64,000 bases of DNA from Aquabacterium sp. (GTDB taxonomy: Bacteria; Pseudomonadota; Gammaproteobacteria; Burkholderiales; Burkholderiaceae_C), in assembly GCF_016195855.1 (NCBI RefSeq), contig NZ_JACPYU010000012.1:124001-188000 (forward strand), written 5' to 3'. The notes beneath the pieces were generated by a model. The model ran no database searches. It was not told where the DNA came from and saw only the letters and a program-made list of their open reading frames with translations. Of this stretch, positions 23,214 through 26,652 are shown piece after piece; within the stretch, counting starts at the first letter, position 1, and every line of letters begins with the position of its first letter. The translations under genes and the position numbers were made by a program.

Positions 23214-23915
23214 TCACGCGGTGCGTACCGCGGCCACGGGTTCCAGCACCGAGGCCATGGCAGACAACAAGCCCTCGCTCGGCGCCGTCCAGCCCACGAT
23301 GGCGCCTTGCGCGCGGATCATGTCCAGCGCAGCTTGCTTGAAGGCGGGGAAGTAGCTCTCGGTGCCGTCCTCAACAAGCAGGCAGTCGTAGCCGCGGTCA
23401 TTGGCTTCGCGCATCGTGGTCTGCACGCACACCTCGGTGGTCACCCCCATCACGATGAGGTGGGTGATCTCGCGCACGGTGAGCGCCTCGTTCAGGCAGG
23501 TCGCATAGAACGCGCCTTTGCCGGGTTTGTCGATGACCAGCTCGCCCTCGATGGGTGCCAGTTCGGGGATGATGGCGTGACCCGGCTCACCTCGGATCAG
23601 GATGCGCCCCATGGGGCCGGCATCACCAATGCGCAATGTGGGTGCGCCCCGGTTGAGCTTGGCGGGCGGGCAGTCCGACAGGTCGGGCTTGTGGGCCTCG
23701 CGGGTGTGCACCACCCAGCCACCCATCTCGCGCCAGGCCTGCAGCACGCGCTGGCAGGTGGGCACGATGGCCTGCAGCAGGCTCACGTCATTACCCAGCG
23801 AGGCACCAAAGCCACCGGGCTCGACGAAGTCGCGCTGCATGTCGATGATGAGCAGCGCCGTGTGCCGGATGTTGAACGTGAAATCAAAGGGCTGGGCGTG
23901 AACGGTGGTGATCAT
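23214..23915 (-). CDS. Isochorismatase-like cysteine hydrolase (second ureide hydrolase)
   Basis: A 233-residue member of the isochorismatase-like superfamily with the triad Asp25 ([10 protein letters not shown]), Lys130 ([10 protein letters not shown]) and Cys163 ([17 protein letters not shown]). It shares [14 protein letters not shown] and [12 protein letters not shown] with the biuret-hydrolase homologue at 25924 but is clearly diverged. Its ATG overlaps the ABC ATPase stop (ATGA), and AtzF follows. Triuret hydrolase or another carbamoyl-urea amidase are the best candidates given this context; the substrate cannot be fixed from sequence. Confidence 0.85.
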
Positions 23916-25513
23916 GCGACCTCCGGGACAGGATGATGGTGGTGCGCACCGCCCATGAAGGCGCCGAGCACATGGCGATCGGCCTCGCGGGCATCGCACT
24001 CGTGCACGATGCGGCCCTCGCTCATGACCACGATGCGGTCGGCCAGCTTGAGCAACTCGTCCAGGTCTTCGCTGACCAGCAGCACGGCTCCACCCTTATT
24101 GCGCACGGCCATGATGCGGCTGTGGATCTCGGCCACGGCGGCGAAGTCCAGGCCGAACACGGGGTTGGACACGAGCAGCACATCGACCTGGCCATCGAGC
24201 TCGCGGGCCAGCACGGCACGCTGCACATTGCCGCCGGACAAGGAACGGATGGGGGCGTTTTCACCCTGGGTCTTGACCTTGTAGGCCGCAATCAGCTCGC
24301 GCGCCTTGTCACGCAGCAGGCTGCCGCGCATCCAGCCCATGCGGGCCACAGGCGCCTGGTCAAAGCGGCGCAGGCCAATGTTGAGTGCCACGCTCAAATC
24401 GCCCACACAGGCATTGCGCAAGGGCTCTTCAGGCAGGCTGCGCACATTCAGGCGCTGGTTCTGCTCGCGCCGCGCGTGGTAGCGCTCATCGGCCATCCAG
24501 ACCTCGCCAGATTCGCGGTCACGCTGGCCAACCAGAGCCTCCATCAACTCGCGCTGGCCGTTGCCCGACACCCCCGCGATGCCCACGACCTCGCCGCCAC
24601 GCACCTGCAGGGACAGGTCGTGCACGGCGCGCTCGCCCCGGTCACCGGCCACGCACAAGCGGTTCACGCGCAGACGCAAGGGCGCTTGGGGGAAAGGCTC
24701 GCGGGGCATGTCTTCAGCCGCCATGGACGCCGCCGTGGTGGCGCCGGCACTCAGGCCCATCATCTCGGCACCGAGCAAGGCAGGCGTGGTCTCGGCCACG
24801 CGGTGACTGCCCATGAGTTGCCCGCGGCGCAGCACGCTGACGTCGTCGGCCACTTCCATCACCTCGCGGAACTTGTGCGAGATCATGATGACGCTGACCT
24901 CACCGGCATGTGCGCGGTCACGCAAGGCGCCCAGCACCTCGTCGGCCTCTTGCGGGGTCAGCACCGAGGTGGGTTCATCCAGGATCAGCAGGCGCGGCTT
25001 GAGGAAGAGCTGCTTGAGGATTTCGAGCTTCTGCTTTTCGCCGGCGGACAGGTCCATGGGGCGGGCATCGAGGTCGAGCTTGAAGGGGGTGGTGGCCATG
25101 AAGGCTTCCAGCTCTTGCCGGACTTTGCGCCAGGGCACGATGGCGGGCAGCTCGCCCTTGGCCAGCAGGAGGTTCTCGGCCACGGTCATGCCGGGCACGA
25201 CGGTAAAGTGCTGGTAGACCATGCCGATGCCGAGGTGGCGCGCGACGACGGGCGAGGTGATGGCGTGTTCGCGGCCATCGATCAGCACGGCGCCGTCGTC
25301 GGGCAGGTGGTAGCCCACGATGGCCTTGACCAGGGTGCTCTTGCCTGCGCCGTTTTCACCGAGCAAAGCGTGCACGGTGCCTGGGCGCACGTCGATGGAG
25401 ACGTTGTCCAGTGCGGTGAAGCTGCCGAAGCGTTTGGTGAGCTGGTAGGTGGACAGGGCCAGGGCGCCTGTTTTGGGGACAGGCTGCAGGCTGGGATCGA
25501 GGGGAGCGGTCAT
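23912..25513 (-). CDS. BMP-type ABC importer, double ATPase subunit
   Basis: A 533-residue ATPase with two ABC cassettes, as in NupO/YufO-like nucleoside importers. The first has Walker A GENGAGKS, signature [12 protein letters not shown] and Walker [11 protein letters not shown]. The second has a degenerate Walker A ([10 protein letters not shown]), signature [14 protein letters not shown] and LLVSNP in place of a canonical Walker B. An unequal pair is normal for this family. The start at 25513 follows AAGGAG. It is separated from the permease genes by biuH and a 410-bp gap containing structured repeats. Its stop overlaps the downstream hydrolase by four bases. Confidence 0.9.
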
Positions 25514-25592
25514 GAGTGGCTTGCTCCTTTGGGATGGCTGGGCACGCCCGGTCTGTTTTGATGGGGATGGGGGTGCGGTGAAGACGGGGCAT

Positions 25593-25684
25593 GCCACTGG
25601 GGCGCACGGCTACGCTCATGTCCCCCGGAATGGGCATGGCCCATTCCTCCTCCTTTACTTTGCTTCGCCGTGCACCCCAGTGGC
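25593..25684 (-). repeat. Nested hairpin element, copy A
   Basis: The outer arms 25593-25610 and 25667-25684 pair over 18 bases with one mismatch that becomes a G-U pair if the minus strand is transcribed. The inner arms 25629-25635 (AATGGGC) and 25639-25645 (GCCCATT) form a second stem. The two internal-loop strands (minus strand GCAAAGTAAAGGAGGAGG and CCGGGGGACATGAGCG) match copy B closely, while both stems have different sequences. Confidence 0.75.
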
Positions 25685-25754
25685 CTACCCCTCACACCGC
25701 GGTGGGGGTGGGAGGGGTAGTTGCAGAGCGAAGGCGCTGCCAGAGCGTGTCGCT

Positions 25755-25854
25755 GCCGTGAGGCTTGGCTGGATAGCGCAGCGAAGTAAAGGGGGAGGTC
25801 AGGCGCAGCCTGGCCGGAGGACATGAGCGGAGCTGTCCAGCCAAGCCTCACGGC
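25755..25854 (+). repeat. Nested hairpin element, copy B
   Basis: The outer arms 25755-25773 and 25836-25854 are a perfect 19-bp inverted repeat. The inner arms 25800-25804 (CAGGC) and 25808-25812 (GCCTG) cap the element. The internal loops read GCGAAGTAAAGGGGGAGG and CCGGAGGACATGAGCG on the plus strand, nearly the same as copy A, which faces the other way. Confidence 0.75.
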
Positions 25855-25923
25855 CTGCTCGACCGCCAAAGCCCCCTGAGCGGAGCGTTCAAAACAGATC
25901 ATGTCCACGCACTCCAACCCACA

Positions 25924-26619
25924 TCAAAGCGACTGCAACGCCTTGATCACAGCCTTGGAATCAGACACTGCACCAAACACCCCACCCTGCATCTTGATCA
26001 TCGAGAACGCAGCCGCATGGTTGTTCGGATCGGTGGCCCCCGTACAGTCCGTCAACATCACGCACTCGAACCCACGGTCGTTGGCGTCCCGCATCGTCGT
26101 GTGCACACACACATCCGTCGTGATGCCCGTCAGGATCACGTTCTGGATACCCTTGGTGTGCAGGATCAGTTCCAGATCCGTCGCATAAAACGAGCCCTTG
26201 CCCGGCTTGTCGATGATGGGCTCCCCATCGATGGGATACAGCTCAGGAATGATGTCCCAGCCCGGCTCGCCCCGCACCAGAATGCGCCCACACGGCCCCT
26301 CATCGCCAATGCCAACGCCATTGGTCCCGATCTGGCGGGAACGCCAGCGCTTGTTCGCCGGCAAGTCACTCAAATCCGGCCGGTGGCCCTCCCGCGTGTG
26401 GATCACCAACATGCCCACTTGCCGCGCCACCGCCAGCAAAGCCTTGATGGGCTCGATCGGTGCGCGGGTCAAGGACAGGTCATAACCCATCTTGTCCACA
26501 TAGCCTCCCACACCACAGAAGTCCGTCTGCATGTCGATGATGATCAAGGCCGTGTTGGACGGGCGCAGATCGCCGTTGTATGGCCAGGCATAGGGCTGGG
26601 CATCCACATAGGTACTCAT
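25924..26619 (-). CDS. biuH: Biuret amidohydrolase (BiuH-like isochorismatase family)
   Basis: A 231-residue cysteine hydrolase closely resembling characterised biuret hydrolases along its length: [85 protein letters not shown]. The triad is Asp29, Lys138 ([10 protein letters not shown]) and Cys171 ([12 protein letters not shown]). It converts biuret to allophanate and ammonia, feeding AtzF. AAGGAG lies five bases before the ATG. It follows the second permease gene by 33 bp, which links the importer to biuret use. Related ureidoacrylate hydrolases (RutB) are less similar in the N-terminal motif. Confidence 0.85.
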
Positions 26620-26652
26620 GAACACTCCTTCAAGCTGACAAGGCAAAGGCCC

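Follow-up and report, generated by a model that had tools for sequence, protein, structure and literature searches.

Between an isochorismatase-like gene and an ABC transporter ATPase gene, the window (the whole stretch of 64,000 nucleotides of Aquabacterium sp. DNA that was analysed) carries two oppositely oriented hairpins, each about 100 nt long, which we propose to be one copy of a dispersed, non-autonomous mobile element. With moderate confidence, we suggest that the two hairpins of this element face apart, that they fold as single-stranded DNA, and that their internal loop is read by a putative transposase-like enzyme. The hairpins belong to a family whose members recur as dyads, have stems that covary while the loops are nearly fixed, and share one strand polarity; sites with and without the element occur, and one genome (G543) contains near-identical units. 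The parts of the unit in the window, with the two flanking genes, are:

23912..25513, minus strand: flanking gene, ABC transporter ATPase (Pfam PF00005, E 1.5e-45)
25552..25898, no strand assigned: whole unit, from one outer inverted-repeat arm to the other (our delimitation; ends provisional)
25552..25561, no strand assigned: left outer arm of a 10-bp perfect inverted repeat, TCTGTTTTGA
25589..25688, minus strand: hairpin 1, sense strand minus (covariance-model match C17:149589-149688; sense-strand fold z -6.9)
25613..25627, minus strand: hairpin 1, 3' loop strand, sense CGGGGGACATGAGCG (from letters and alignment)
25628..25646, minus strand: hairpin 1, inner stem-loop, variable (from letters and fold)
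25647..25663, minus strand: hairpin 1, 5' loop strand, sense GCAAAGTAAAGGAGGAG (from letters and alignment)
25689..25755, no strand assigned: spacer of 67 nt between hairpins 1 and 2, with small inverted repeats of its own
25756..25853, plus strand: hairpin 2, sense strand plus (covariance-model match C17:149756-149853; sense-strand fold z -7.0)
25781..25797, plus strand: hairpin 2, 5' loop strand GCGAAGTAAAGGGGGAG (from letters and alignment)
25798..25814, plus strand: hairpin 2, inner stem-loop, variable (from letters and fold)
25815..25829, plus strand: hairpin 2, 3' loop strand CGGAGGACATGAGCG (from letters and alignment)
25889..25898, no strand assigned: right outer arm of the 10-bp perfect inverted repeat, TCAAAACAGA
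25924..26646, minus strand: flanking gene, isochorismatase-like hydrolase (Pfam PF00857, E 8.2e-45)

Within each hairpin, a purine-rich internal loop of 17 + 15 nt separates a long outer stem from an inner stem-loop of 17-19 nt; across the family, the outer stem measures 22-26 bp in 152 of 200 copies. The loop strands, read in the sense direction, show very few differences between the two hairpins of the window (GCGAAGTAAAGGGGGAG / CGGAGGACATGAGCG in hairpin 2 versus GCAAAGTAAAGGAGGAG / CGGGGGACATGAGCG in hairpin 1), and two of these differences, A for G and G for A, face each other. The outer and inner stems are unlike in sequence, yet both are still paired. Both hairpins fold far better than shuffled sequences on either strand (z -5.9 to -7.0; none of 200 shuffles equal), and the 361-nt region around the pair gives a z of -7.8 when folded as DNA and of -6.6 for its minus strand folded as RNA. 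Covariance-model matches, the letters themselves and the comparison with shuffles confirm the nested, oppositely oriented hairpin pair that had been proposed at this place from the sequence alone. The same sequence-only reading had considered a ribosome-binding site and start codon in the conserved strand, which we reject, as the bases that follow ATGAGCG form the variable stem and the Shine-Dalgarno-like bases covary with the opposite strand. Two terminator-like sites lie near the pair and are distinct from its hairpins. The ABC transporter ATPase gene is flanked by two isochorismatase-like genes (window 23214-23999 and 25924-26646).

The copies of the element are numerous in related bacteria. 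Using a covariance model (R1) built from 60 copies, with all genome-search counts being lower bounds, we found at least 13 copies in the source genome, and matches in at least 21 of 42 genomes of the genus, at least 58 of 120 genomes of the family and at least 13 of 397 genomes of the phylum, nine of the latter in the element's own family and four in one family of another order. Four rich genomes contain at least 64, 48, 33 and 29 copies, and a pattern scan of the named genomes gave at least 119 stretches. Among the 80 matches listed, the titles are mostly from Burkholderiales and Rhodocyclales, with one labelled Lysobacterales. The search of relatives that had been suggested along with the original reading thus yields further copies, and changes in their stems keep the pairing. 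The family has no name in Rfam either, in line with the earlier statement that none could be recognised: nothing scored above any gathering cut-off, and the 10 matches up to E 5 were all to microRNA models (the best one from animals), far below the cut-off, so that membership of an Rfam family was rejected. Carriage by viruses or plasmids was likewise rejected, with zero exact pattern matches to the element in viral contigs and no plasmid match for the window stretch. The core of the element was not found in the open-licence paper texts searched; a 15-mer search of such texts led to a single paper, on autophagy, and keyword searches of the literature returned papers on REPs and REPINs and the Beta-proteobacterial repeat element (BRE; PMC3110155) as the nearest candidates.

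The stems of the family change in sequence and remain paired. Of the 31 pairs in the 60-row alignment, 27 have changed on both sides, and 96.8% of the cells pair, versus 65.3% in shuffles and 36.5-42.5% when the partners were slid. Sites within the genus were taken as orthologous on the basis of the genes beside them; there, up to 13 of 22 stem pairs have changed on both sides, and the 32 loop bases of pattern-matched copies show 0-2 differences; here, as in the whole collection, gathering copies by their loop pattern creates a bias towards conserved loops, and the comparison left out the window's own minus copy (one loop base off) and the module-bearing copies described below. The contrast between nearly fixed internal loops and changing, paired stems that was first noticed in the window extends to the family. 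At orthologous sites the element separates the requirement that the stem must pair from the requirement that the loop must be fixed, and therefore makes the recognition code directly testable. Conservation extends to a GGG(T/C)G block of the outer stem.

The internal loops are conserved, as the sequence-only reading had it, and they are not simply unpaired. Where orthologous sites differ at two loop bases, these bases face each other, with A.G replaced by G.A or A-T by G-C. Among 172 pattern matches, the combination GA/GG occurs 120 times and the swapped combination GG/AG 23 times, while the unmatched GA/AG occurs three times; GCGAGG is accompanied by ACACGAG in five of six cases. Three other genomes have Watson-Crick pairs in place of the tandem G-A pairs (GCGAAAT/ACATTCGC in G518 and G532, GCGGCAT/ACAGCCGC in G484). 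Because the loop covaries internally and admits such replacements, it is read as a partly non-canonical helix around a AAAGGAGGAG / GGGGGACA core.

The hairpins are arranged in a preferred orientation. Out of 42 neighbouring pairs less than 500 nt apart, 39 are (-,+), two are (+,-) and one is (-,-). The spacer measures 43-62 nt in 34 of the 39 (-,+) dyads of the named genomes, compared with 67 nt in the window, and the spacers listed have no sequence in common across genera. Single hairpins are frequent as well: the 117 clusters in named loci include 75 singles, two (+,-) and one (-,-), so that 78 clusters lie outside (-,+) dyads. The genomic location was counted for 80 clusters, after leaving out 28 at contig edges and nine inside predicted frames, with gene calls derived from codon-position GC. 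Gaps between divergent genes are depleted (3 of 80 clusters versus 48 of 192 control gaps; Fisher, nominal p 1e-5), gaps between convergent genes hold 24 of 80 clusters versus 35 of 192 controls (nominal p 0.04), and co-directional gaps hold 53 of 80 versus 109 of 192.

Two types of stem, A (GGGG(C/T)GnTCTG) and B (GGGTG(G/C)CCG), are often partners in dyads of several genera, which gives the impression of a unit with two distinct ends; with these classes defined post hoc, 14 of 47 dyads in other genera are clearly A+B. In the source genome, contigs C10 and C15 (L220 1771-4140 and L221 2439-6728) each show an A-like (-) hairpin followed by a B-like (+) hairpin, 2.2 and 4.1 kb apart, with genes in between, one of them for a flavin reductase. 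These pairs are possibly dyads that have been stretched around cargo genes.

The clearest sign of movement comes from genome G543, in which the same A + B dyad, with a spacer of about 46 nt, is present at 14 of the 16 loci examined, each time in different flanks; the remaining two loci hold one truncated A and one divergent B. Over the 22 bases of the stem arm, the median identity is 1.00 within the 15 A stems and within the 15 B stems of this genome (classes picked by an 11-base pattern with at most two mismatches), versus 0.50 among the 13 copies of the source genome and 0.45 between loci of the named genomes. Judged from these sequences, one unit looks to have been multiplied recently in G543, while the copies of the source genome look old, because their median identity is hardly above that between loci of named genomes. 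Degenerate inverted ends were seen by eye, with no statistic attached, in several of 15 G543 loci, and the ends vary between copies. Neither a clean target duplication nor a sharp end was seen at the sites inspected; none is obvious at the C13 site or, by eye, in G543, and the ends there are not fixed.

Presence and absence at orthologous sites are also in line with a dispersed element. Within the genus, some genomes have the pair at the window's position in the related operon and others lack it; in many genus genomes the pair lies in the permease-ATPase gap instead, and G004 has no hairpin in that gap (33-nt pattern matches within the ABC gene, which mimic hairpins by chance, were ignored in this comparison). 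Several of these loci (L168, L176 and similar ones in the genus) have three extra genes between the isochorismatase-like and ABC ATPase genes, read from their translations as a substrate-binding protein, a permease and an ATPase, which are absent from the window. At the C13 site, the element is absent in G012, G016, G017 and G038, and a one-arm remnant is left in G019; such sites with and without the element report presence or absence only, gain and loss not being separated by a tree. At the same C13 site, G009 (L300, which carries the module described below) and the source genome (L225) have a similar outer stem, with the core inverted as if it had been flipped in place.

The two strands of the hairpins are not equivalent. 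On the sense strand, the outer stems of 199 distinct copies contain 3897 Watson-Crick pairs, 332 G.T pairs, 20 A.C pairs and 129 other mismatches, 108 of which are purine-purine; the stem register was picked by Watson-Crick count, which is strand-neutral. Because each G.T is an A.C on the opposite strand, only the sense strand is kept foldable. This polarity is independent of host transcription: the G.T:A.C ratio is 80:8 in hairpins that are antisense to both flanking genes (n=56) and 116:4 in co-oriented hairpins (n=51), the latter having more G.T than the antisense set, and with copies related to each other any binomial p-values are nominal. With a role in the neighbouring mRNA, one would expect the ratio to be reversed in the antisense set, which it is not.

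This result bears on the first alternative that we considered, a structured RNA serving the host, which would be transcribed with or beside genes, and would protect, cut or end the mRNA, with a host protein or RNase binding its loop. Such an RNA would account for the strong fold, for the large excess of G.T over A.C on the sense strand and its greater frequency in co-oriented than in antisense copies, and for the position downstream of genes with few copies in divergent gaps. We nevertheless consider it unlikely, as it conflicts with the unchanged polarity of the antisense copies, with the orientation of single copies in co-directional gaps (12 sense, 20 antisense), with the (-,+) dyad, in which one hairpin is always antisense, with the 21 congeneric genomes, out of 42, that gave no match, and with the uniform units of G543. 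Directly behind the hairpin, a T-run is present on the sense side in only 1 of 200 copies, which also speaks against such an RNA, and on the antisense side in 5 of 200; an intrinsic terminator was rejected on these counts. Among the three guesses that the sequence-only reading had made about the nature of the pair, the REP-like mobile palindrome is best supported, while the structured RNA and the processing site in the operon transcript do not agree with a polarity that is independent of the direction of the flanking genes.

RNA and single-stranded DNA would both account for the excess of G.T over A.C. A second alternative is that the element is mobile and its folded strand acts as RNA, for instance as the template or guide used by a reverse transcriptase or a guided recombinase. 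This reading would draw on the same movement and polarity evidence, and a tolerance of G.T about 16 times that of A.C is expected of G-U pairs in RNA. Against it, no promoter of the element's own was found in window 25450-26000; the lack of shared sequence in the listed spacers and of a partner gene among the neighbour-protein clusters viewed adds to our doubt, and we rate this version slightly below the host RNA.

The element resembles several known systems. REPINs are units of two inverted hairpins with a short spacer, of which singles also occur, and are non-autonomous, small, dispersed extragenic palindromes (PMC3116915); movement by a transposase that acts on the single-stranded hairpins has been proposed (PMC3116915, PMC6006769). 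The likeness to REPINs and BIMEs lies in the inverted hairpin dyad as the repeated unit, seen in the 39 of 42 (-,+) pairs and at the 14 G543 loci. In contrast to the short REPs described elsewhere (PMC2817692), the hairpin measures about 100 nt, well outside a palindrome of 20-40 nt, and has a conserved internal loop between variable stems. A conserved stem, as in REPs, is not seen in the source genome (median identity 0.50), although in G543 the median rises to 1.00 when A stems and B stems are each compared among themselves. A GTAG-type head near the base is rare in 200 copies (GTAG 5, GGAG 11, GTGG 6, CGTC 3), and flanks aligned at the stem end have no position above 0.25 bits. A RAYT/Y1 transposase was rejected as the mover: 11 genus genomes have both it and the element, with 11 expected, and within the family it is present in 6 of 10 copy-rich genomes and in all 10 of 10 that are element-free. 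The element is therefore organised like a REPIN and falls outside that group, having another hairpin, no GTAG-type head and no RAYT link. Genome G450, which has no element match, contains 20 Y1 transposase matches, many equal in score, and looks like a case of IS200-like expansion.

MITEs share with the unit a length of about 350-400 bp and a non-coding, non-autonomous nature, and the inverted ends seen by eye in G543 and the 10-bp outer repeat of the window may correspond to the terminal inverted repeats of MITEs. Unlike in MITEs, the ends vary between copies, and the conserved sequence sits in the interior hairpins. In integron attC sites, the folded single strand is the substrate, and the stems are paired and free in sequence. 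The stems of the element are likewise paired and free in sequence, and its folded single strand may be the substrate as well; no cassette arrays were seen with it.

An identity with the BRE of Bordetella and relatives appears improbable to us. The BRE is described as a repeat of about 90 bp from Comamonadaceae and one Rhodocyclaceae genome (PMC3110155); it is mostly intergenic and suspected to be mobile, and its length and host groups overlap with those of the Burkholderiales hairpins studied here. By the same description, BREs form tandem repeats with no or few nucleotides in between and are well conserved along their length (PMC3110155). Set against that description, the present element has opposed dyads and variable stems, head-to-tail arrays are absent (just one of the 42 neighbouring pairs is co-oriented, at a distance of 404 nt), and no Bordetella title is among the 80 matches listed.

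Least probable of all, in our view very much so, is that structure is under no selection and that the arms are kept alike by templated (quasipalindrome) correction at a neutral palindrome: at one orthologous site with seven copies, nearly all stem changes hit both arms and wobble intermediates are absent, and the core inverted between orthologs is what palindrome-driven mutation would produce, but such correction should erase the mismatched loop, which is instead nearly fixed and covaries inside, and a G.T:A.C ratio of 332:20 would need one favoured strand.

Eleven hairpins carry a nested module of 68-70 nt with covarying hairpins of its own, located between GG(G/A)GGA and C(A)TGAGCG or a near variant (L040, L080, L140/171, L141/179, L169, L190, L232, L269/276/300, L281/287/306, L339/371 and L375). 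A copy of the module occurs in another context in L085. The 69-nt module of G543 has exactly the same letters in L375, an A hairpin, and in L371, a B hairpin. Two explanations are considered: a second mobile element that uses the loop as its landing site, or an exchange of cores between copies.

We hypothesize that the mobile element works as follows. In each hairpin, it is likely the purine-rich strand that folds alone, as single-stranded DNA rather than RNA, and the conserved internal loop is the predicted recognition site of a putative transposase-like enzyme that would act in trans. Units would move as non-autonomous hairpin dyads. After insertion, the stems may drift and yet stay paired, probably through selection on the hairpin and perhaps through templated repair between the arms. 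The core may sit in either orientation within the stem, and may carry the extra hairpin module at one exact loop position. The neighbourhood of the element did not point to a mover: clustering of 604 predicted proteins within 3 kb gave no recurrent transposase gene beside it among the 25 most widespread clusters viewed, and nine neighbour proteins assigned by Pfam are all ordinary (ABC transporter, GGDEF, aldehyde dehydrogenase, LysR, biotin carboxylase, LigB, PP-loop, YidC and flavin reductase). More tentatively, we speculate that the element represents a new class of mobile element, in which a purine-rich loop between free stems would be the code, a non-RAYT enzyme would read one folded strand, and the same loop would be the exact landing site of the nested element of about 69 nt; we regard this extended proposal as possible, though clearly less probable than the mobile dyad itself.

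The comparison of G.T with A.C in co-oriented and antisense copies provides a simple test that sets a host-mRNA role against an intrinsic single-strand role, and it can be applied to dispersed repeats. The element, which is absent from Rfam, occurs in about half of the genomes sampled from a large bacterial family, and it points to a putative enzyme acting on it.
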